Shown one piece after another: positions 168 to 37,362 of a stretch of DNA of 64,000 nucleotides (positions within the stretch are counted from its first letter, which is position 1; each line of letters opens with the position of its first letter). Source of the stretch: Oscillatoria sp. FACHB-1407 (GTDB taxonomy: Bacteria > Cyanobacteriota > Cyanobacteriia > Elainellales > Elainellaceae); contig NZ_JACJSA010000013.1 in the NCBI RefSeq assembly GCF_014697545.1, positions 62,001 through 126,000 of the forward strand, read 5' to 3'. The notes under the pieces were generated by a model. The model was not told where the DNA came from and searched no databases. It saw only the letters and a list, made by a program, of their open reading frames with translations. Made by a program: the position numbers and the translations under genes.

Positions 168-244
168 TGGTGACGGAGGTGAGAATTGCACTCACTGATG
201 TGAAGGGTATGAACCTTCCGAGCCACTGTTGCTCCATCTCCGCA
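168..244 (-). tRNA. tRNA-Met (CAU), initiator-like
   Basis: 77 nt, anticodon CAU. The first acceptor position is a T1/C72 mismatch, the hallmark of initiator tRNAs, and the 3' end ACCA is encoded. The anticodon stem GAAGG/CCTTC has only two of the three G:C pairs typical of initiators, so the assignment as fMet rather than elongator Met is probable, not certain. Confidence 0.8.
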
Positions 245-318
245 TACCCCTGGCAGGATTTGAACCTGCACCCATCCCGGTTTAAGCGGGCTACGTCTGC
301 CAGTTGCGTCACAGGGGT
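245..318 (-). tRNA. tRNA-Leu (UAA) with short variable loop
   Basis: 74 nt. Acceptor ACCCCTG/CAGGGGT with A73, Leu-like D-arm, loop CTTAAAC giving UAA. The variable loop is only TGGGT (5 nt), whereas bacterial tRNA-Leu normally carries a long class II arm. No group I intron interrupts the anticodon loop, unlike many cyanobacterial chromosomal tRNA-Leu(UAA) genes. Confidence 0.8.
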
Positions 319-323
319 ATGTT

Positions 324-398
324 TGGTGGGCTATGTAGGATTTGAACCTACGCTCTTCCGCTTAAGAGGCGGCTGCTTTACCACTTAGCTAATAGCCC
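324..398 (-). tRNA. tRNA-Lys (CUU)
   Basis: 75 nt cloverleaf, acceptor GGGCTAT/ATAGCCC, loop CTCTTAA (anticodon CUU), canonical T-arm, encoded ACCA end. Confidence 0.9.
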
Positions 399-429
399 AT
401 TGATGAGTTGCTCAACTTAAAGTTGAACA

Positions 430-501
430 TGGGTCGCCCAGGGGTTGAACCTGGATCTCTCCGCTTAAAAGGCGGCTGCATATCCGCTCTGCCAACGACC
501 C
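430..501 (-). tRNA. tRNA-Lys (UUU)
   Basis: 72 nt cloverleaf, acceptor GGGTCGT/GCGACCC, loop CTTTTAA (anticodon UUU), A73, CCA not encoded. Its anticodon stem CCGC/GCGG matches the neighbouring Lys(CUU) gene. Confidence 0.9.
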
Positions 502-510
502 GAATCAAGT

Positions 511-547
511 TAATTTTTTGTGTGAGCTTTGCTCACACAAAAAATTA
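511..547. repeat. perfect 17-bp hairpin between tRNA genes
   Basis: Arms 511-527 and 531-547 are perfectly complementary with a TTT triloop. The arms end in an A/T tract, so the structure resembles a bidirectional terminator or an RNA processing signal. Confidence 0.85.
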
Positions 548-554
548 TTCATTT

Positions 555-632
555 TGGTACACCGAGCAGGAGTCGAACCTGCTAATAACACGCTTATCGG
601 GCGTGCGCTTCCACCACTTCCGCCTTCGGTGC
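555..632 (-). tRNA. tRNA-Ile (GAU)
   Basis: 78 nt. Anticodon stem CACGC/GCGTG with loop CCGATAA gives GAU. Acceptor closes with a G/T pair; the ACCA end is encoded. The D-arm resembles the Leu genes of this array, so identity rests on the anticodon. Confidence 0.8.
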
Positions 633-633
633 T

Positions 634-709
634 TGGTACTCCCGGTGGGAATCGAACCCACAAAATCTAGATCCTCGGTCTAGAGCGTCTTCCCTTCCGC
701 CACAGGAGC
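634..709 (-). tRNA. tRNA-Leu (GAG) with short variable loop
   Basis: 76 nt. Stem CTAGA/TCTAG, loop CCGAGGA (GAG), A73 and encoded CCA. The D-arm GCGGAAGGGAAGACGC is typical of tRNA-Leu, yet the variable loop is ATTTT (5 nt) instead of a class II arm. Confidence 0.85.
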
Positions 710-714
710 ATCAG

Positions 715-788
715 TACCCTTGGTGGGAGTCGAACCCACAAAATCTGGTCTCTGAAGCCAGCACGTCTGCCAGTTCCGTCACAAGGGC
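715..788 (-). tRNA. tRNA-Leu (CAG) with short variable loop
   Basis: 74 nt. Leu-like D-arm, loop TTCAGAG (anticodon CAG) with a C31/A39 mismatch closing the loop, variable loop ATTTT. A73 is followed by CTG rather than CCA, as if an encoded CCA had mutated. Confidence 0.75.
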
Positions 789-804
789 AAACTTTCTTTC
801 TGTA

Positions 805-831
805 TGCTGTGAGAACAGTGTTCTCACAGCA
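805..831. repeat. perfect 12-bp hairpin between tRNA genes
   Basis: Arms TGCTGTGAGAAC (805-816) and its complement (820-831) around an AGT triloop, in the 55-nt space between Leu(CAG) and Pro. Confidence 0.8.
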
Positions 832-843
832 CACGATACTTAT

Positions 844-922
844 TGGTCGGGATGGTAGGATTTGAACCTACGACCTTCCGCTTCCAAAGCGGTAACTCTC
901 AACCAAGCTGAGCTACATCCCG
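844..922 (-). tRNA. tRNA-Pro (UGG)
   Basis: 79 nt cloverleaf. Acceptor CGGGATG/CATCCCG, loop TTTGGAA (UGG), encoded ACCA. Confidence 0.92.
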
Positions 923-927
923 ATAGT

Positions 928-1004
<77 letters not shown>

Positions 1005-1006
1005 AC

Positions 1007-1028
1007 AAATTTTGGACACCCAAAATTT
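1007..1028. repeat. perfect 9-bp hairpin between tRNA genes
   Basis: AAATTTTGG (1007-1015) pairs with CCAAAATTT (1020-1028) around ACAC, in the spacer between two Leu genes. Confidence 0.7.
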
Positions 1029-1040
1029 TTAATAAACAAG

Positions 1041-1117
1041 TGGTACTCCTGGCGGGAGTCGAACCCACACGTGACTGGTTTTGAGACAGCCGCCTCTTCC
1101 AATTGGGCTACAGGAGT
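1041..1117 (-). tRNA. probable tRNA-Leu (CAA), short variable loop
   Basis: 77 nt with canonical T-arm, A73 and encoded CCA. The anticodon stem is weak (GCTGT/CCAGT, one mismatch). The most likely loop CTCAAAA gives CAA, but a 9-nt loop reading is possible. Variable loop CACGT. Confidence 0.65.
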
Positions 1118-1132
1118 GAGTGTGTTTAAGAA

Positions 1133-1169
1133 ATTTATTTTTCGTGCGCTAAGCGCACGAAAAATAAAT
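1133..1169. repeat. perfect 18-bp hairpin between tRNA genes
   Basis: Nearly loopless inverted repeat with 18-nt arms (1133-1150 and 1152-1169) around one A. The core TCGTGCGCT is GC-rich and the outer part is A/T-rich. Confidence 0.85.
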
Positions 1170-1186
1170 CCTTATCCTTTAGAAAT

Positions 1187-1277
1187 GGGAGGAATACAGG
1201 GGATTGACCCAGGCGACTGTTCCCAAAGCATTTCAGAATTCTGCAAGCTCGTGACTTCTGAAATGCTTTGCCTCCCA
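1187..1277 (-). pseudogene. tRNA-like gene disrupted by a 14-bp inverted repeat
   Basis: The ends pair as an acceptor (GGGAGG with CCTCCC). Between them lies a perfect inverted repeat (arms 1225-1238 and 1256-1269, core TTTCAGAA) with a 17-nt loop, followed by a poor T-arm. No D-arm or anticodon arm can be assigned. It looks like a tRNA whose middle was replaced by a palindromic insertion. Confidence 0.5.
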
Positions 1278-1279
1278 AC

Positions 1280-1351
1280 TGCCCCGCCAGGATTTGAACC
1301 TGGAATCTTCGCTTTCAAAGAGCGGGATGTTGCCAGTTACACCACAGGGCA
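1280..1351 (-). tRNA. tRNA-Gln (UUG)
   Basis: 72 nt cloverleaf. Acceptor TGCCCTG/CGGGGCA, loop CTTTGAA (UUG), canonical T-arm. Confidence 0.9.
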
Positions 1352-1356
1352 TTGGA

Positions 1357-1428
1357 TGCAGGAGTTGGGGTCGAACCAACCTCTCTCTGATTCAGAGTCA
1401 GAGCGACTTGCCAATCGTCCATCCTGCA
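1357..1428 (-). tRNA. tRNA-Gln (CUG)
   Basis: 72 nt. Acceptor TGCAGGA/TCCTGCA, stem TCTGA/TCAGA, loop CTCTGAA (CUG), T-arm GTTGG/CCAAC. Confidence 0.9.
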
Positions 1429-1433
1429 ATAAA

Positions 1434-1508
1434 TGGCTGCCCCAATAGGATTCGAACCTATAACCTTCCCGTTAACAGCGGGCTGCTCAACCGTTGAGCT
1501 ATAGGGCA
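1434..1508 (-). tRNA. tRNA-Asn (GUU)
   Basis: 75 nt. Acceptor TGCCCTA/TGGGGCA, loop CTGTTAA (GUU), discriminator G and encoded CCA. Confidence 0.92.
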
Positions 1509-1513
1509 ATGAG

Positions 1514-1586
1514 TGGGAAGTGACAGGATCGAACTGCCTTCTCGCCGTCTTCAGCGGCACGTGAGCACCAGCTTCACCAACTTCCC
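1514..1586 (-). tRNA. tRNA-Phe (GAA)
   Basis: 73 nt. Acceptor GGGAAGT/ACTTCCC, loop CTGAAGA (GAA), A73. A damaged copy of this gene lies in the second array at 37378. Confidence 0.88.
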
Positions 1587-1601
1587 AAACAGTTCAAATT
1601 T

Positions 1602-1692
1602 TGGCGGAGGCTAAGAGAATCGAACTCTTGACGGTGTATTTCACCCGCAGGCGTTTTCAAAACGCTTTCCTCGTCCGTGCCGGACAACCTCC
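1602..1692 (-). tRNA. tRNA-Ser (UGA), class II
   Basis: 91 nt with a long variable arm retained. Loop TTTGAAA gives UGA; discriminator G and encoded CCA. A near-identical copy lies at 37272-37362. Confidence 0.93.
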
Positions 1693-1697
1693 ATGAT

Positions 1698-1775
1698 TGG
1701 CGAGAACGGAAGGAGTTGAACCTTCACTCTTCGGTTTCGTAGACCGATGTGTTCATCCAGTTACACCACGTCCTC
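1698..1775 (-). tRNA. tRNA-Arg (ACG)
   Basis: 78 nt. Acceptor GAGGACG/CGTTCTC, stem TCGGT/ACCGA, loop CTACGAA (ACG, presumably edited to ICG), G73 and CCA encoded. Copy at 37189-37266. Confidence 0.93.
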
Positions 1776-1781
1776 ACGCAG

Positions 1782-1862
1782 CGGAGAGCAGTGGAGTCGA
1801 ACCACAATTGTTCATCCATCTGTTTAGCAAACAGCGCCAATCTCCTAATTGGTTTACTCTCC
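1782..1862 (-). tRNA. tRNA-Ser (GCU), class II
   Basis: 81 nt. Acceptor GGAGAGT/GCTCTCC, loop TTGCTAA (GCU), long variable arm. G73 is followed by CTG rather than CCA. A related but degraded copy begins the second array. Confidence 0.87.
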
Positions 1863-1875
1863 ATTCAGATTCAGG

Positions 1876-1958
1876 TGGGCAGGGAGGGACTCGAACCCCC
1901 AACGGTCGGGGACAACTGATTTACAGTCAGTCTGCTTCAGCCATTTGCATACCTACCC
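1876..1958 (-). tRNA. tRNA-Tyr (GUA), class II
   Basis: 83 nt. Acceptor GGGTAGG/CCTGCCC, stem ACTGA/TCAGT, loop CTGTAAA (GUA), long variable arm, A73. Confidence 0.92.
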
Positions 1959-1961
1959 ATT

Positions 1962-2038
1962 TGGCAGTGCCGACGGGAGTTGAACCCGCAAGCATCGACT
2001 TGAAAGATCGACGGCTTTACCAATTTGCCTACGGCACC
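1962..2038 (-). tRNA. tRNA-Glu (UUC)
   Basis: 77 nt. Acceptor GGTGCCG/CGGCACT, stem TCGAT/GTCGA, loop CTTTCAA (UUC), G73 and encoded CCA. Confidence 0.9.
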
Positions 2039-2114
2039 AAGTTTTCAGATTTCTACAGCGTGCAAGTTTGAGAAGCTGTTTTTTCAGCCTCCATTGGCTG
2101 TTCTAACGAACAAA

Positions 2115-2193
2115 TGGCGGAGGCTGTAGGATTTGAACCTACTTCGCTGATTAGGCGAGTGACCAGTATGTAGGCTTCTCGGATGAGGGCACA
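2115..2193 (-). pseudogene. tRNA gene lacking its 5' half
   Basis: The T-arm (GTAGG/CCTAC), 3' acceptor strand AGCCTCC, G73 and CCA are intact, and an anticodon-like arm TCGC/GCGA is visible (loop CTAATCA). No matching 5' acceptor strand or D-arm exists; that side is occupied by the 28-bp repeat at 2166-2193. Confidence 0.6.
2166..2193. repeat. 28-bp repeat, copy 1
   Basis: Matches 2547-2574 with one mismatch; it begins GTATGTAGGCTTCTCG. In both places it sits where the acceptor and D-arm of a tRNA gene should be. Confidence 0.85.
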
Positions 2194-2201
2194 CCGTAGA
2201 A

Positions 2202-2272
2202 CGCACAGACCAGGATTTGAACCCGGACAAAAGGCTTTGGAGACCCTTGTGCTGCCGTTACACCATCTGTGC
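2202..2272 (-). tRNA. tRNA-Trp (CCA)
   Basis: 71 nt. Acceptor GCACAGA/TCTGTGC, loop CTCCAAA (anticodon CCA), G73; CCA end not encoded. Confidence 0.9.
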
Positions 2273-2278
2273 AAGGGT

Positions 2279-2349
2279 CGCAGCGGTGGGAGTCGAACCC
2301 ACATATCCTCGGTTATGAGCCGAGTACCTTAGCCGTTAGGTGACACTGC
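2279..2349 (-). tRNA. tRNA-Met (CAU), elongator or Ile-type
   Basis: 71 nt. Stem CTCGG/CCGAG, loop CTCATAA (CAU), T-arm GTGGG/CCCAC. A lysidine-modified Ile(CAU) cannot be excluded from sequence alone. Confidence 0.85.
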
Positions 2350-2355
2350 AATGGT

Positions 2356-2430
2356 TGGACTCCAGGGAGAGAATCGAACTCTCGCTAGTTGGTTTTGCAG
2401 ACCAACGCCTTCCCACTTGGCGACCTGGAG
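2356..2430 (-). tRNA. tRNA-Cys (GCA)
   Basis: 75 nt. Acceptor CTCCAGG/CCTGGAG, stem TTGGT/ACCAA, loop CTGCAAA (GCA). The discriminator is U73, a known CysRS identity element, and CCA is encoded. Confidence 0.93.
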
Positions 2431-2490
2431 ATAAATTTGCTGTGCAAGTTAAAGAAGCTGTTTTGGGTTGAACTACCTCGCCACCAAACC

Positions 2491-2574
2491 TGGCGAGGGC
2501 TGGAATTGCACCAGCAACCTATCGTGTTTCAAACGATCGTTCTACTGTATGTAGGCTTCTCGCATGAGGGCACA
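2491..2574 (-). pseudogene. tRNA gene lacking its 5' half (Phe-like anticodon)
   Basis: Anticodon arm ATCGT/ACGAT with loop TTGAAAC (GAA) and T-arm GCTGG/CCAGC are intact, followed by G73 and CCA. The 5' acceptor and D-arm are missing and replaced by the second copy of the 28-bp repeat (2547-2574). An 8-bp hairpin (2476-2483/2491-2498) overlaps the 3' end. Confidence 0.6.
2547..2574. repeat. 28-bp repeat, copy 2
   Basis: One mismatch to copy 1 at 2166-2193; directly abuts the anticodon arm of a truncated tRNA. Confidence 0.85.
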
Positions 2575-2578
2575 GCAA

Positions 2579-2652
2579 CGAGGATGACAGGAGTCGAACC
2601 TGTGACTACTTGCCTCGGAAGCAAGCACTCTGTCCATCTGAGTTACATCCTC
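2579..2652 (-). tRNA. tRNA-Arg (CCG)
   Basis: 74 nt. Acceptor GAGGATG/CATCCTC, stem CTTGC/GCAAG, loop TTCCGAG (CCG), G73. Confidence 0.9.
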
Positions 2653-2654
2653 AT

Positions 2655-2781
2655 TGGGAGCCTTGACGGGAGTTGCACCCTAATCGCATCTTCTGAACTC
2701 TGGACTACGTCTGTCTGAGTTCAGAAAGATACGACTTTCTGGCTGAGAACCAGAACGACTTTTCTATTCGTCCACAAGGCT
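2655..2781 (-). tRNA. tRNA-Glu (CUC) with ~50-nt insertion
   Basis: Acceptor AGCCTTG/CAAGGCT with encoded CCA, and a clear anticodon arm (stem TCTGG/CCAGA, loop TTCTCAG, CUC). Between the anticodon stem and the T-arm lies about 50 extra nt containing a 10-bp inverted repeat (2691-2700/2717-2726, TTCTGAACTC). The gene is 127 nt long. It is either a dead gene or carries an RNA insert that would need removal; I favour inactivation. Confidence 0.65.
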
Positions 2782-2786
2782 GTACG

Positions 2787-2837
2787 GCTTTTTCAGTTAA
2801 TGGTTAGTGCAAAGCACTAACCATTAACTGAAAAAGC
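2787..2837. repeat. perfect 24-bp hairpin between tRNA genes
   Basis: The longest hairpin in the array: arms 2787-2810 and 2814-2837 are perfectly complementary around an AAA triloop. It lies between the first tRNA (Asp) and the rest of the array, so it could attenuate or process the transcript. Confidence 0.9.
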
Positions 2838-2841
2838 TATA

Positions 2842-2917
2842 CGGGGATGATGGGATTTGAACCCACGATCTTTCGCTCGACAGGCGATCGCTTTAAACCA
2901 GGCTAAGCTACACCCCC
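2842..2917 (-). tRNA. tRNA-Asp (GUC), first tRNA of the array
   Basis: 76 nt. Acceptor GGGGGTG/CATCCCC, stem ATCGC with loop CTGTCGA (GUC), T-arm GTGGG/CCCAT, G73. It starts 55 nt downstream of the leader-gene stop codon. Confidence 0.92.
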
Positions 2918-2972
2918 AAAAGGTGGCACTATTTAGTTTTCAAGGTTCAGGTGACTGATGAATCAGCAGGAA

Positions 2973-3167
2973 TTAGAAGAAGCAACGCCGCTCTAGGTAA
3001 TAGGTTTGTTGAAGTGAACGGAGTGCTTGCGTGTGTTGAGTAGATAATGAATTTCCCTGATTAAATAAGTCATCTTGAAGTGGTGTAAAAGTACCAAGGA
3101 AATGAGTTTGGAAGAACTCTAAGAGCTTCAAGAGAGCAATGTTTTTAGTAAGGGAGTGAGTGGTCAT
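2973..3167 (-). CDS. 64-aa leader protein of the tRNA array
   Basis: Unrecognised small protein starting MTTHSLTKN and ending YYLERRCFF. The start is set by AGAGGAG 7 nt upstream and by the second locus (36875), where a homologous but frameshifted copy starts MNTLSLTKN at the equivalent ATG. Conservation of the reading (LEL, NQ-N-LS, QALR, YYLER) between the copies argues that it is or was translated. It is the first gene after the array promoter and ends 55 nt before tRNA-Asp, so it is probably co-transcribed with the tRNAs. A similar C-terminus (YFLERR) occurs in a third small ORF at 42683. No function can be assigned; a leader peptide sensing translation is one possibility. Confidence 0.6.
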   Translation of the reverse strand: MTTHSLTKNIALLKLLEFFQTHFLGTFTPLQDDLFNQGNSLSTQHTQALRSLQQTYYLERRCFF

Positions 3168-3194
3168 TGGATTAACTCCTCTGTGTCTCATCTC

Positions 3195-3244
3195 ATACTA
3201 CAAACATAATACAACATACTACAAAGTGTCAAGAGGGTACTACA
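3195..3244 (-). promoter_or_regulatory. array promoter with four phased ATACTACA boxes
   Basis: ATACTACA (or one-mismatch variants) occurs at 3195, 3206, 3216 and 3237, i.e. at steps of 11, 10 and 21 bp, on one face of the helix. On the minus strand a -35 TTGACA (3227-3232) and -10 TATGTT (3203-3208, 18-bp spacer) lie among the boxes. A repressor bound to them would block the promoter. The same arrangement precedes the second array (36799-36847), and related boxes precede the ribbon-helix-helix gene. Confidence 0.7.
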
Positions 3245-3339
3245 ACTTTTTTTGACAAGGGAAAGAGCAATTTTTTTACAGACGCCTTAGCGATCGCCAA
3301 AACCCTATTTTTATTGCCCTTTTCCCTGCGTTTTACCCG

Positions 3340-3518
3340 CTATGCGAAAGAGGAAACCTGCACTTCACTTATCTGCCACAATTGGTAAACCAATAATTCG
3401 GCGTGGTTACTCATCACGGTCAAAAACATTCCCTCGTGAGCTTCCTTGTTCTCAGCAACCCAGCTACCGCTGAGATTGACTTCTACAGAACCGTCATCAA
3501 CCGGAAAGACGTTGCACT
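3340..3518 (-). pseudogene. C-terminal fragment of an unknown protein
   Basis: An open minus-strand reading of about 59 codons ending in ...LWQISEVQVSSFA-stop, with no start; upstream it stops at the sequence CTAGTACAGCAAAAAATAA, which also occurs near 19397. A homologous C-terminus lies at the equivalent place upstream of the second tRNA array (36650-36728), so this gene was part of the ancestral locus. Family not recognised. Confidence 0.45.
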
Positions 3519-3635
3519 AGTACAGCAAAAAATAATATCAATTTGAATTGGTATTAGAGAACACCACAACCTGATTTTGGAGTATAGGAATTTCCTGTTG
3601 CTGCTGAGTTTGCATGAGTTTTCTCCTCAAAAAAT

Positions 3636-3668
3636 AACCCCCGCCTCTGACGACCAGGAGCGGGGGTT
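3636..3668 (-). terminator. rho-independent terminator
   Basis: Stem AACCCCCGC/GCGGGGGTT followed on the minus strand by TTATTTTTT. It lies just downstream of the small minus-strand ORF at 3691-3909. Confidence 0.75.
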
Positions 3669-3690
3669 GGGGAAGTGGATATGGCTTTCC

Positions 3691-3909
3691 CTATGTCGGT
3701 GTCAGGATTGCCCTGCACCTCCCGCTGCTCGTGAGTTGATCCGGATTGAGTCGTCCGGCGATCGTGCTATCAATGCCTTCGCTGACGGATTTACTGCCAC
3801 TAAATCGATACGTCCCCTCAAACACAAACAGCACCGATGCTTTGCCTAGACCATATTGGGGTCGGCATTGCATGGTGCTGCTTAAGGTGGCGTGAAGGAT
3901 GCGTATCAT
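3691..3909 (-). CDS. hypothetical 72-aa protein
   Basis: Not recognised. It starts MIRILHATLSSTMQCRPQ and shows a hydrophobic patch followed by a Ser/Gly-rich middle. Support for a real gene is positional: TGTAGTAT boxes lie immediately upstream (3917-3934), and a strong terminator follows the stop. It would be divergent from the ribbon-helix-helix gene and share its control region. No clear ribosome-binding site precedes the ATG. Confidence 0.35.
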   Translation of the reverse strand: MIRILHATLSSTMQCRPQYGLGKASVLFVFEGTYRFSGSKSVSEGIDSTIAGRLNPDQLTSSGRCRAILTPT

Positions 3910-3916
3910 GGAAGGC

Positions 3917-3967
3917 TGTAGTATTTGTATTACAATTTTGGATGTCTACATACTACACTTGTAGTAT
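3917..3967. promoter_or_regulatory. TGTAGTAT operator region of the ribbon-helix-helix gene
   Basis: Contains TGTAGTAT at 3917, the variant TGTATTAC at 3926, and a perfect palindrome ATACTACA-CT-TGTAGTAT at 3950-3967. These are the same 8-mers as in the tRNA-array promoters. Position between divergent genes suggests autoregulation. Confidence 0.65.
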
Positions 3968-4007: not shown

Positions 4008-4130
4008 ATGGATACACGTAAACGAGGTAGCACTTCGGAAATACAGGTCACGAGTATCCGACTAGAACCCGAACTGAAGGAGCGATTGAGGGAAATCTTT
4101 GGAGGGCAAGGGTATCAGACCCTCATCTGA
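4008..4130 (+). pseudogene. ribbon-helix-helix (CopG-like) regulator, nonsense mutated
   Basis: Starts MDTRKRGSTSEIQVTSIRL; the pattern of a short beta strand followed by EPELKERLREIF and GYQTLI fits the CopG/ParD-type ribbon-helix-helix fold, a DNA-binding dimer that recognises short repeats. The frame stops at TGA (4128-4130) after 40 codons. Reading on in the same frame gives DGLWRSVEQQTRSDELLHD, the expected end of the second helix, so a CGA-to-TGA change (R41 to stop) is the simplest explanation. In-frame codons continue to 4340, running into the convergent gene. The truncated product keeps most of the fold but loses the end of helix 2. Confidence 0.6.
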
Positions 4131-34151: not shown

Positions 34152-35075
34152 ATGAGTGAGTTAGTCGAGCGTGTTTTTCCAGCAGGCGATCGCAGAATTC
34201 CCTTGGATCACACTCCTCTTAACCAGTTGCCAACCTGGGGGCACTGGCTAGAAACGCCTCATTTGACTGCTGCAATGCTCACACCAGGACAGCTAGAAGT
34301 GAATCTGTTGGCTCCGTTTGAATTTATTTCAACTCGGTTTCAGCCGGGTCATGGCATTGCCGCTTTTGACTCTGACAAGCTAATCCCCTATCACGCCATC
34401 CCAGGAGGCTATGATGTCGTTCCTCAGGGCAGCACATATCGCTCCATTGAAACGGCGGGTTGCTGCATCCTCCTGGCATACAAGCAGCCTCTTGCATCGC
34501 GGATTATGGCTGAATACACCGATGAAGCAACCGTTGAGCTAGTGCCAGGGCAAATTCAGCCCAGCACCAAAGGAACAAAACTGGCTCAAGCTCTACACGC
34601 CTTCTTTACCGATGCTCACCACTGGGGCGGTTCCTTGTATTTGGAGTCCCTTGCCACCCTGATTATGGGACACGTCATCCAGAACCGATCTACCGTCTCT
34701 AAACGGTTGAAACGAGTTCCAGATTACTTAACAGCCAAGCAGTTAAAAACCGTGCTTGAGTATATTGAGGCTCATTCAAGCAGTGATTTGAGACTTTATC
34801 AGATTGCTCATCATGTTGGCGTGAGTCCCTATTACCTGGCTCATACTTTCAAAGGTACGACGGGATTATCGCCCTACCAATATGTTTTACGCTGTCGGAT
34901 AGAGCAAGCGCAACACTTACTCAGAAATAGCCAAATGTCTATCGCCGCGATCGCCTATGAAGTTGGCTTTGGTAGTCAAAGCCACATGACCACAGTATTT
35001 CGTAGAACTCTGAACATCACACCAGGGCAGTATCGCCAACAGGTTAATCAACAGACGCAGCGTAAGGGCTTGTAA
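34152..35075 (+). CDS. AraC-family regulator with IS-derived C-terminus
   Basis: 307 aa, RBS AGGAG. The C-terminal double helix-turn-helix is complete: YQIAHHVGVSPYYLAHTFKG and AYEVGFGSQSHMTTVFRRTL, then TPGQYRQQ. The N-terminal sensor domain is unrecognised. The insertion sequence begins at 35065, so the last codons (KGL) and the stop come from the IS end. The native tail was probably only a few residues longer, so the protein is likely functional. Divergent from the MAPEG gene, a probable target. Confidence 0.85.
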   Translation: MSELVERVFPAGDRRIPLDHTPLNQLPTWGHWLETPHLTAAMLTPGQLEVNLLAPFEFISTRFQPGHGIAAFDSDKLIPYHAIPGGYDVVPQGSTYRSIETAGCCILLAYKQPLASRIMAEYTDEATVELVPGQIQPSTKGTKLAQALHAFFTDAHHWGGSLYLESLATLIMGHVIQNRSTVSKRLKRVPDYLTAKQLKTVLEYIEAHSSSDLRLYQIAHHVGVSPYYLAHTFKGTTGLSPYQYVLRCRIEQAQHLLRNSQMSIAAIAYEVGFGSQSHMTTVFRRTLNITPGQYRQQVNQQTQRKGL

Positions 35076-36017
35076 ATAAATAAGTTCATGCTTTTTGGGG
35101 ATTTGAGTGCGAGGATGGAGAATGTAATTCCAGTGCTGACAAATCTTGCGATGAGTGAGTTTGAGTGCCGCCATTTCCTCGTCTGAAACTTTGACTTTAG
35201 TGGGATAGCGACCCTTGAGTTGGCAGGCTTTGACCGTTAACCCGGTTTGAGTTGTTGTGCCTCGAATCAGAGCCGTCATCCGATTGAGGGAACGTAACGG
35301 TTTGCCTGCCCAATTGAGCGAAATAAAACTGAACAAACGATGCTCAATCGGATTCCACCTGGAAGCACCAGATGGATAATGGCAAACCATCACCTCAATT
35401 CCATAGCGGTCTGCTAATTGCTGTTGCAGTTGACGCTTCCAGTTACGAACCCGGTAACCGTTGCTCCCCCCGGAATCACACAGGATCAACAACTTGCTTT
35501 CATCAGCAAAGCGAGGACGGTCTTTGCGTTCAAACCATCGCTCAATGGCATCGACTGCAAAAGCGGTTGTATCACCGGATGTGCCAATATAAACAAAGCC
35601 CTGATTATGCACTAGATCATAAATCCCATAGGGCACTGCTTTGGCAATGGCATCTTGAGGAAATTCATGGTCATTGACGGCTTCAGCCTGCCCAGTCCAG
35701 GTTTGCCCTGCATTTTTGAAGTTACCAATCAGTTCCTTCTTCTTGGTATCAACACTGATGACCGGATGCCCTGATTGGATAAATCGTTGCTTGACTCGAC
35801 GAATGTAGCGGAACGGCGGATCTCGCTCTGGGTGTTGAGTGGTCGCCACCGATTTGCGGTTGGACTTGAGTGAATAACCCTGCTGCTTGAGCAATCGTCG
35901 AATGCTGCTATGACTCAGCAGAAACCCGATGCCCAGCAAACTAGCTTTGATGCGACGCAAACTCTGACGAATCCATTTGCCTGCTCCGCATGGGTCTCCT
36001 GCTGTTTCTGTTTCCAC
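34917..36017 (-). CDS. ISAzo13-like transposase, main (C-terminal) part
   Basis: DDE-type transposase: ISVDTKKKELIGNFKN (first Asp), LLILCDSGGSNGYR (second Asp) and RWNPIEHRLFSFIS (Glu) give the catalytic triad. The C-terminus SDEEMAALKLTHRKICQHWN recurs in the fragment at 6820. Its reading frame has no stop inside the IS and runs on past 35065 into flanking DNA. The frame is joined to the N-terminal ORF through a run of seven A's near 36053; a -1 shift at A_AAA_AAC gives a continuous IEKKLAGVEQ. Confidence 0.8.
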   Translation of the reverse strand: METETAGDPCGAGKWIRQSLRRIKASLLGIGFLLSHSSIRRLLKQQGYSLKSNRKSVATTQHPERDPPFRYIRRVKQRFIQSGHPVISVDTKKKELIGNFKNAGQTWTGQAEAVNDHEFPQDAIAKAVPYGIYDLVHNQGFVYIGTSGDTTAFAVDAIERWFERKDRPRFADESKLLILCDSGGSNGYRVRNWKRQLQQQLADRYGIEVMVCHYPSGASRWNPIEHRLFSFISLNWAGKPLRSLNRMTALIRGTTTQTGLTVKACQLKGRYPTKVKVSDEEMAALKLTHRKICQHWNYILHPRTQIPKKHELIYLQALTLRLLINLLAILPWCDVQSSTKYCGHVALTTKANFIGDRGDRHLAISE

Positions 36018-36430
36018 GGTCGCTTGTAATGCCTGTTCGACTCCAGCTAGTTTTTTTCTATCCGTTTGCGCCCACCTCCAGCCACTCGAACTCGCTCAAC
36101 GGGTCGATTGGCTAACCCCCCATCAAGTTCCCGTCGTCCCCGTCGAATCGTATTGATGTCCAATCCCGTGATCTCGCTTAAGCGTTGCGTTCCCCCATGT
36201 CCTAGCCGTTTCGCTTCTAACGCTGCCATCCATCGTCGTTGCTGTTCATTCAATCGACTCATCAACAGATTCAGTTGTTCATAGTGCGACTGAGTCGGTT
36301 CCTTTCCCTCCTGGCACTCCCAACACTGGCACTGATGAATGATTTGGCTCCCCATCCAGGTACTCCGGGTCTGATAGTTAACCTCTTAAGTCTAATCCTA
36401 AAGCCATGAAGTTATTTCTTGACAAGCTCT
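35065..36430 (-). mobile_element. ISAzo13-like insertion sequence
   Basis: Imperfect terminal inverted repeats: AGGGCTTGTAAATAAATAAG at 35065 and its counterpart at 36403-36430 (GAGCTTGTCAAGAAATAACT on the minus strand). It carries two overlapping transposase frames. It is inserted at the end of the AraC gene and borders a truncated restriction-subunit fragment. No target duplication is evident, so one flank may have been rearranged. A 140-bp 3' fragment of the same IS lies at 6820. Confidence 0.8.
36047..36355 (-). CDS. ISAzo13-like transposase, N-terminal ORF
   Basis: 102 aa. Helix-turn-helix region with LMSRLNEQQRRWMAALEAKR and GHGGTQRLSEITGLDINTIR, then RVAGGGRKRIEKN-stop. In related elements GGGRK leads straight into the catalytic part, so the stop reflects either a lost base in the A-run or programmed frameshifting. 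Confidence 0.75.
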   Translation of the reverse strand: MGSQIIHQCQCWECQEGKEPTQSHYEQLNLLMSRLNEQQRRWMAALEAKRLGHGGTQRLSEITGLDINTIRRGRRELDGGLANRPVERVRVAGGGRKRIEKN

Positions 36431-36798: not shown

Positions 36799-36847
36799 TT
36801 TAGTACCCTCTTGACGTCCGTAGTATGTTGTATTATGTTTGTAGCAT
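36799..36847 (+). promoter_or_regulatory. promoter of the second tRNA array with phased boxes
   Basis: TTTAGTAC, CGTAGTAT, TGTATTAT and TGTAGCAT at 36799, 36819, 36829 and 36840 (steps 20, 10, 11 bp). -35 TTGACG (36811) and -10 TATGTT (36834) with 17-bp spacer. Boxes and phasing are the same as at 3195-3244 although the DNA downstream has decayed. Confidence 0.7.
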
Positions 36848-36874
36848 AACGTGAGCCATAGAGAAGCCAATCCA

Positions 36875-37080
36875 ATGAACACTCTCTCCCTTACTAAAAA
36901 CAGTTCTCCTTTGAGGCTTTTAGAGTTATTAAAAAATCATTACTCCGACACTTCTACGCTACTTCTACACCACTTCAAGACGAGTTAATAAATCAGGACA
37001 ATCTATCTCTTGTTCAACACATACAAGCACTCCGCTAATTTCAGAAAATCTATTATCTGGAACGGCATTGCTTTCTCTAA
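36875..37080 (+). pseudogene. decayed copy of the array leader gene
   Basis: Starts MNTLSLTKNSSPLRLLELLK in one frame, stops after 37 codons, and continues in another frame as ELINQDNLSLVQHIQALR-stop-FQKIYYLERHCFL. Clearly homologous to the 64-aa protein at 2973-3167, with one frameshift and one nonsense codon. Confidence 0.7.
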
Positions 37081-37104
37081 TTGCACAGCCTAACTAATCT
37101 CCAG

Positions 37105-37184
37105 GTCGCCATTGGCAAGGCAAACTGTTTGCTAAACAGTCGTGGTTTCATCGCCACTGTAGGTTCAATTCCTGCTCGCTCCGC
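37105..37184 (+). pseudogene. degenerate tRNA-Ser (GCU)
   Basis: Anticodon arm ACTGT/ACAGT with loop TTGCTAA (GCU), class II variable arm and T-arm GTAGG/CCTGC. The 5' acceptor strand does not pair with the 3' strand. Confidence 0.55.
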
Positions 37185-37188
37185 CTTT

Positions 37189-37266
37189 GAGAACGTGGTG
37201 TAACTGGATGAACACATCGGTCTACGAAACCGAAGAATGAAGGTTCAATTCCTTCCGTTCTCGCCA
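37189..37266 (+). tRNA. tRNA-Arg (ACG)
   Basis: 78 nt, near-identical to 1698-1775; acceptor GAGAACG/CGTTCTC is fully paired, loop CTACGAA, G73 and CCA encoded. Confidence 0.88.
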
Positions 37267-37271
37267 AACAG

Positions 37272-37362
37272 GGAGGTTGTCCGGCACGGACGAGGAAAGC
37301 GTCTTGAAAACGCCTGCGGGTGAAATATACCGTCAAGAGTTCGATTCTCCTAGCCTCCGCCA
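37272..37362 (+). tRNA. tRNA-Ser (UGA), class II
   Basis: 91 nt, near-identical to 1602-1692; loop CTTGAAA (UGA), long variable arm, G73 and CCA encoded. Confidence 0.88.

Follow-up and report, generated by a model that had tools for sequence, protein, structure and literature searches.

What would keep a long array of spare tRNA genes silent when the ribbon-helix-helix (RHH) regulator gene beside it is broken? The question is raised by one end of the window, as we call the whole 64-kb stretch of DNA analyzed here, in which tRNA genes, repeated short promoter boxes and an RHH gene interrupted by a stop codon lie together. A preliminary description had proposed that this regulator, or a close relative, represses both the array and itself, and that the nonsense mutation would release the array. 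The proposal of repression is right, and had already been published for TrcR (All0854) of Anabaena sp. PCC 7120, an RHH protein that represses its own gene and the 26-gene trn operon (PMC10272220).

The Anabaena work rests on EMSA, DNase I footprints, reporter (CFP) fusions and qRT-PCR, and the footprints lie on ATACTACACTTGTATTAC at the trcR promoter and on TGTAGTAT over the -10 element at the trn promoter (PMC10272220). The trn operon is silent in normal growth and induced by translation inhibitors; repression is relieved by chloramphenicol and some other elongation inhibitors, and the TrcR protein level drops under chloramphenicol (PMC10272220). The array is on a plasmid and is repressed from chromosomal trcR, the genes for RtcB, RsgA, GNAT and HNH proteins are further targets, and the published mutants are hit at Leu44 and Ala72, the Leu44 change abolishing binding (PMC10272220). 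Such inducible cyanobacterial tRNA arrays are termed L-arrays (Santamaria-Gomez et al. 2021, as cited in PMC10272220 and PMC9938897), and the HNH gene all8564 adjoins that of Anabaena (PMC9938897).

Phased boxes at the array promoter

The features around array 1 are the following.

172 to 2918, minus strand: tRNA array 1, 22 tRNA genes, the first being tRNA-Asp(gtc)
2973 to 3167, minus strand: array leader ORF of 64 codons, with a Shine-Dalgarno-like AGAGGAG before its ATG, between the operator and tRNA-Asp
3195 to 3202, minus strand: box 4, exact TGTAGTAT
3206 to 3213, minus strand: box 3, TGTATTAT
3216 to 3223, minus strand: box 2, exact TGTAGTAT
3227 to 3232, minus strand: -35 element TTGACA of the array 1 promoter
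3237 to 3244, minus strand: box 1, TGTAGTAC, beginning 12 bp upstream of the start of the -35 element
3538 to 3630, minus strand: putative remnant of an HNH endonuclease N-terminus, an ORF identified by eye, the remainder of the gene missing
3691 to 3909, minus strand: asr0855-like small ORF of 72 aa, divergent from the RHH gene
3917 to 3934, strandless: upstream box pair on the side of the RHH gene, 10 bp apart, 3917-3924 being exact TGTAGTAT and 3927-3934 GTATTACA with two mismatches
3950 to 3967, strandless: palindromic operator, a perfect ATACTACA-CT-TGTAGTAT, separating the RHH gene from the asr0855-like ORF
4008 to 4130, plus strand: array-borne RHH gene trcR2, with a stop at codon 41, which is Arg in intact relatives

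The two box words are one, TGTAGTAT being the reverse complement of ATACTACA. In forward letters the array 1 boxes at 3195 and 3216 are exact, and those at 3206 (ATAATACA) and 3237 (GTACTACA) have one mismatch each, which confirms the four boxes with steps of 11, 10 and 21 bp given in the preliminary description. Two further clusters described there stand in part. At the RHH gene the palindrome is perfect and the extra box at 3917 exact, but the second extra box, at 3927, is degenerate; at a second array the positions and the steps of 20, 10 and 11 bp are correct, but none of the four boxes is exact. This second array is decayed.

36799 to 36847, plus strand: array 2 operator, boxes at 36799, 36819, 36829 and 36840 with two, one, one and one mismatches, and TTGACG between the first and second
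36875 to 37077, plus strand: frameshifted remnant of a leader ORF
37189 to 37362, plus strand: two recognisable tRNA genes, Arg-acg and Ser-tga

Beside the decayed array (36799-37362), at 34917-36355, lie ORFs that by eye resemble transposase.

The window holds five exact boxes where 0.77 are expected, and none of 100 shuffles gave five or more. Boxes with at most one mismatch are not enriched over the window (34 against 30.4 expected, with 34 reached in 33 of 100 shuffles), nor are exact boxes in excess genome-wide (83 against 113 for a reversed-pattern control). Clusters were scored as non-overlapping boxes within 50 bp, each with at most one mismatch and at least one of them exact; the best cluster in the window has four, against 0 (86 windows), 1 (109) or 2 (5) in 200 first-order Markov windows. 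The genome contains seven exact-box pairs at a spacing of 9-12 bp, and 83 scattered sites would give about 0.004 pairs at 8-12 bp by chance. The boxes are real, and their excess over chance lies in their clustering and not in their number; a chance origin is ruled out by this clustering despite the unenriched one-mismatch count and a genome count below the reversed control.

The sequence places a TrcR-type box at or near the -10 of the array promoter, the exact -10 of leader-type arrays being uncertain. In these arrays the -35 and -10 elements are 15 bp apart, and TATTAT in box 3 may serve as the -10 element of array 1 with this short spacer; in Nostocales arrays box 3 yields a -10 element with a 17-bp spacer. 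Long, headed by tRNA-Asp and preceded by a TrcR-type promoter, array 1 has the make-up of an L-array (trn operon), and no further tRNA gene occurs downstream of it in the next 8 kb of the contig.

The same operator recurs at other arrays. Thirteen of 14 plasmid-search records with an array head were examined, 12 of them Nostocales stretches, and boxes stand at the array promoter in every one of them; an alignment with the two window operators shows box 1, TTGACA or TTGACG and lower boxes of varying quality in common. Adding 18 trcR2-linked loci (17 with tRNA genes, and L141) and L109, a further array of genome G060, gave 34 operators. As the preliminary description would lead one to expect for related cyanobacteria, every one of the 34 has two to four phased boxes, each with at most one mismatch. 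The steps between boxes measure 10-12, 20-22 or 31-33 bp in 73 of 77 cases and 35 bp in the other four (12 of 10, 26 of 11, two of 12, 15 of 20-22 and 18 of 31-33 bp). The corresponding phasing, R = 0.87 at a 10.5-bp period, is descriptive, the operators being homologous, in some cases from one genome, and not independent. TTGAC[AG] is found in 33 of the 34 operator regions, L128 being the one without; in Kovacikia and L132 an additional hexamer of this kind farther upstream was the first encountered, the usual one being present too. This phased operator across arrays is a new part of the system.

Every one of the 12 Nostocales stretches has an HNH match ahead of the array, and none contains a TrcR relative at E 0.001. 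In nine of the 12, a pair of boxes 10 bp apart, with one half off by one base, occupies the place of the palindrome. Because these plasmid arrays keep the pair there without a TrcR relative, the palindrome at 3950-3967 is best assigned equally to the divergent asr0855-like/HNH unit. In the window the HNH part of that unit seems reduced to an N-terminal remnant, and tblastn of the 3538-3630 ORF region gave no HNH match at E 0.001. Two Nostocales plasmids carry CopG-family regulator annotations beyond the array (L104, 7827-8121; L115, 6323-6718), one of them beside an AAA ATPase gene. Neither gene matches TrcR, and another, CopG-annotated RHH protein could conceivably act at these two arrays.

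An array-borne lineage of trcR

We use TrcR2 as a label for the array-linked RHH lineage. The window copy is incomplete. Its stop at codon 41 precedes Leu44, homology continues past the stop to about 4226 (approximately residue 72), and beyond this the C-terminal domain is missing; there is no full frame with helix B and the C-terminal domain. Because that domain is also lost, reverting the stop codon alone would not restore the whole protein. The RHH part aligns with TrcR at 57% identity over residues 3-51 of the intact protein encoded on contig C17 of the same genome, and the strand VTSIR, which by likeness to RHH proteins we take to be the predicted DNA-contact strand, is identical in the two. 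Matches to RHH families are weak: the read-through window copy matches the Pfam BrnA antitoxin below the cut-off, a PHROG Arc-like family is matched at E 7e-4, and the best solved structure is a nickel regulator at E 0.29. The intact proteins match no Pfam or NCBIfam family at E 0.01, and the fold prediction for TrcR2 is poor (pLDDT 51). The RHH assignment of TrcR itself is published (PMC10272220).

With a near relative of the linked protein as query, named genomes yielded 20 loci. In 17 of these, tRNA genes lie on the divergent side of trcR2, 9-34 in 16 loci and two in L128, near a contig end; the contig ends ahead of the array place in L126 and L141, and L122 has a lone tRNA-Cys only. The array is headed by tRNA-Asp in 15 of the 17, and an HNH gene or fragment lies between trcR2 and the tRNA genes in 16 of the 17; among the 20 loci L130 has no HNH match, and L122 and L140 have fragments only. 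Typically trcR2 is followed by the palindrome, the asr0855-like ORF, the HNH gene, the phased operator, in some a leader ORF, and the array. A further Kovacikia copy, L142, has no array within the examined stretch.

In a tree of 52 rows, 19 array-type proteins, the window copy included, separate from 33 others with 100/100 support, so that the window copy stands outside the clade of trcR of the C17 type and groups with 18 other array-type rows; the two sets came from different queries, the 33 being the own-genome row, 29 of the best matches and three others, and the Anabaena protein is absent from the tree by name. Pooled pN/pS over 18 array-type copies is 0.11 for the RHH part and 0.33 for the whole protein, and TrcR2 has a linker of variable length and a conserved C-terminal domain. 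The expectation of boxes at RHH genes of relatives was borne out, in two forms: ATACTACACTTGTATTAC stands at the own promoter of 24 of 33 trcR loci, and a perfect ATACTACA-NN-TGTAGTAT palindrome at 15 of 18 trcR2 loci, with one more, in L135, displaced upstream. TrcR and TrcR2 may differ in specificity, because residue 13 is Glu in TrcR and Gln in TrcR2 and the second half-site at their own promoters differs. An HNH gene lies within the examined flank of 20 of the 33 trcR loci, and the array unit therefore resembles a duplicated trcR/HNH neighbourhood that has gained an array.

Broken linked copies are not confined to the window. Stop codons interrupt Kovacikia L101 (codon 32), L139 (codon 91, close to a contig end), L140 (codon 55) and L141 (codon 45), so that five of 22 copies (20 named loci, the window and L101) are broken; L137 and L138 are only slightly short. 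The array operators beside the broken copies elsewhere keep three or four boxes, and two other genomes checked, G060 and G185, in which linked copies are present, also encode the other type of TrcR. For these two reasons loss of the linked copy seems to be tolerated, and continued repression by TrcR would be the simplest reading. No description of array-linked trcR copies was found in the open-licence literature, and the word 'paralog' does not occur in the main text of PMC10272220. TrcR regulation of an array is already known; the array-borne lineage is new.

Nine Nodularia phage records share approximately the C-terminal half of TrcR. In one, L143 (2827-3255, Nodularia phage vB_NpeS-2AV2), the protein has the TrcR C-terminal domain, 37.5% identical over 56 residues, and a different N-terminal part that, by eye, may be a diverged RHH. 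Among viral contigs scanned with a TrcR2 alignment none was confirmed, and a phage origin of TrcR was set aside despite the shared C-terminal half.

The ORF at 2973-3191 was considered as a regulator, but no protein family matches it, and a leader ORF, spanning 2973-3167, is the better reading. Ten of the 20 named trcR2 loci have such an ORF, one cut by a contig end. Twelve full copies are open in the same frame to the same stop region (window, L101, L109, L123, L124, L125, L127, L130, L132, L136, L139 and L140), with small length changes in L139, L130 and L109 and no ATG in L139. In these Leptolyngbya-like arrays the ORF ends in a conserved LERRCF(L/F)-like stretch. It has no match in the Nostocales stretches or among protein family models, and clear matches (E below 1e-4) in 386 genomes are confined to this genome and G060. 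Relative to the window copy, dN/dS is 0.37-0.68 in eight other rows; pooled pN/pS is 0.72 (0.189/0.261) over 10 of the 12 rows, L127 and L109 being excluded for stops upstream of the start codon. Selection looks weak to moderate, and the ORF is probably coding.

The intact trcR and its candidate regulon

The genome has an intact trcR at a locus other than that of the linked copy.

C17:24013: intact trcR

The published 18-mer stands letter for letter 102 bp upstream of this gene, in keeping with the proposal that an RHH regulator represses itself and the array, and its product has Leu44 and Ala72 at the same numbers as the published mutants. The seven exact-box pairs lie at the window palindrome and near rsgA, which rtcB follows (contig C2, about 350 bp upstream of rsgA), a GNAT gene (C28), kptA and an asr0855-like/HNH pair (both C8), a TIGR04168 phosphoesterase gene (C7:275393-275419, upstream) and a sensor-kinase-like gene named by eye (C5:261-278, upstream). 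By gene kind, those near rsgA/rtcB, GNAT and asr0855-like/HNH match known TrcR targets.

KptA, an RNA 2'-phosphotransferase, goes unmentioned in the main text of PMC10272220. Phased TrcR-type boxes lie upstream of kptA at C8:208887-208903 and in L146, L147, L156 and L158. Of 30 kptA loci three were left out because they lacked the motif by which the gene was located; among the 27 scored, an exact box lies upstream in six and a phased pair in four, this genome included, and a downstream control gave none. This patchiness led us to drop kptA as a general TrcR target, and we propose it as an occasional one beside rtcB and rsgA. As a target, it would bring RNA repair under the same stress regulon as the spare tRNAs.

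Probable silencing of the array by TrcR

We consider it likely, with a probability of about 0.85, that the boxes are TrcR operators through which RHH dimers would silence the array, and that intact TrcR would hold it despite the dead linked copy. The boxes, their phasing, conservation and linkage, the two lineages and the intact second gene come from this analysis; to these the reading adds binding, repression, autorepression and relief by some translation inhibitors from Anabaena. RHH dimers would bind 8-bp boxes that follow each other at about one or two helical turns across the array promoter: the first immediately upstream of the -35 element, the second in the spacer, the third overlapping the -10 or close to it and the last close to the start site. 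Filled boxes would exclude RNA polymerase and leave the spare tRNA array silent until translational stress lowers TrcR. We infer that the same boxes here are recognised by both TrcR and TrcR2, and that phased boxes fill cooperatively. The linked TrcR2 would be an array-borne paralogue behind the same kind of box, mostly divergent from the asr0855-like ORF, the HNH gene and the array. In this strain it is dead, and the array would most likely still be held by TrcR from the other locus.

Were the linked RHH gene the only repressor of the array, its stop codon would leave the array permanently on in this strain. The gene is indeed broken, and in related loci it adjoins an array with the same type of box; yet the same genome has an intact trcR preceded by the published operator, Nostocales plasmid arrays keep their operator with no linked TrcR relative in the examined stretches, and Anabaena represses its plasmid array from chromosomal trcR (PMC10272220). 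We regard a sole repressor as very improbable. Release of the array by the stop codon, as the preliminary description had it, is likewise unlikely, and was rejected as the main reading because of that intact trcR; it gains no support from the predicted DNA-contact strand, which the two proteins share, or from dead linked copies elsewhere, whose neighbouring operators are kept.

TrcR2 might instead be a specialised repressor that reads array operators and answers another signal, so that its loss would change when, and not whether, the array is silent. Its separate clade, variable linker and strongly kept RHH part would fit such a role, as would the prevalence of the perfect palindrome at its loci in place of the longer motif of other trcR loci; the broken linked copies beside kept array operators speak for overlap with TrcR, and we think specialisation possible but rather doubtful. 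One could also take the phased boxes mainly for promoter core, overlapping -10-like TAGTAT hexamers kept for transcription. TAGTAT resembles TATAAT and box 3 does form the -10 element in Nostocales arrays, but boxes also occur upstream of the -35 element and close to the start site, form a palindrome at trcR, are found again in phased pairs at other genes and are footprinted by TrcR in Anabaena (PMC10272220). To the promoter-core account we give almost no credence.

Read as TrcR operators, the boxes place this locus close to the Anabaena system. Shared are a putative RHH repressor, the ATACTACA/TGTAGTAT box, predicted autorepression and predicted repression of a tRNA array, and also HNH, RtcB, RsgA and GNAT gene kinds among the targets and the retained Leu44 and Ala72. 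In Anabaena, however, a single box is named at the trn promoter and trcR is chromosomal, apart from the plasmid array (PMC10272220), whereas here there are four phased array boxes and a second, array-borne trcR lineage. Like other L-arrays this one is a long array of spare tRNAs, with an HNH gene adjoining in relatives, and the Nostocales ones are on plasmids; Leptolyngbya-like arrays differ in bringing trcR2, and some in having a 64-codon leader ORF between the promoter and the first tRNA. With Arc, CopG, MetJ and NikR the system shares a small protein led by a beta strand, short boxes spaced by about one helical turn and predicted autorepression. It differs from them in its weak similarity to solved members, such as the nickel regulator, and in a C-terminal domain of TrcR's own, common to Nodularia phage proteins.

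Somewhat short of even odds, in our estimate, is the broader possibility that many cyanobacterial arrays are a travelling, self-silencing unit, made up of TrcR2, a shared palindromic operator, the asr0855-like ORF, an HNH (possibly homing) endonuclease and the phased operator, in some with a leader protein. Its own repressor would silence the array on arrival in a new host and be lost where the host's resident TrcR assumes that task; the leader ORF may contribute translation sensing. A repressor link established in one strain is here extended, by sequence, to Leptolyngbya-like and Nostocales arrays, one group of which comes with a repressor gene of its own. It thus becomes testable how sets of spare tRNAs spread and are kept silent, and whether an off-switch has to travel with a mobile tRNA array.
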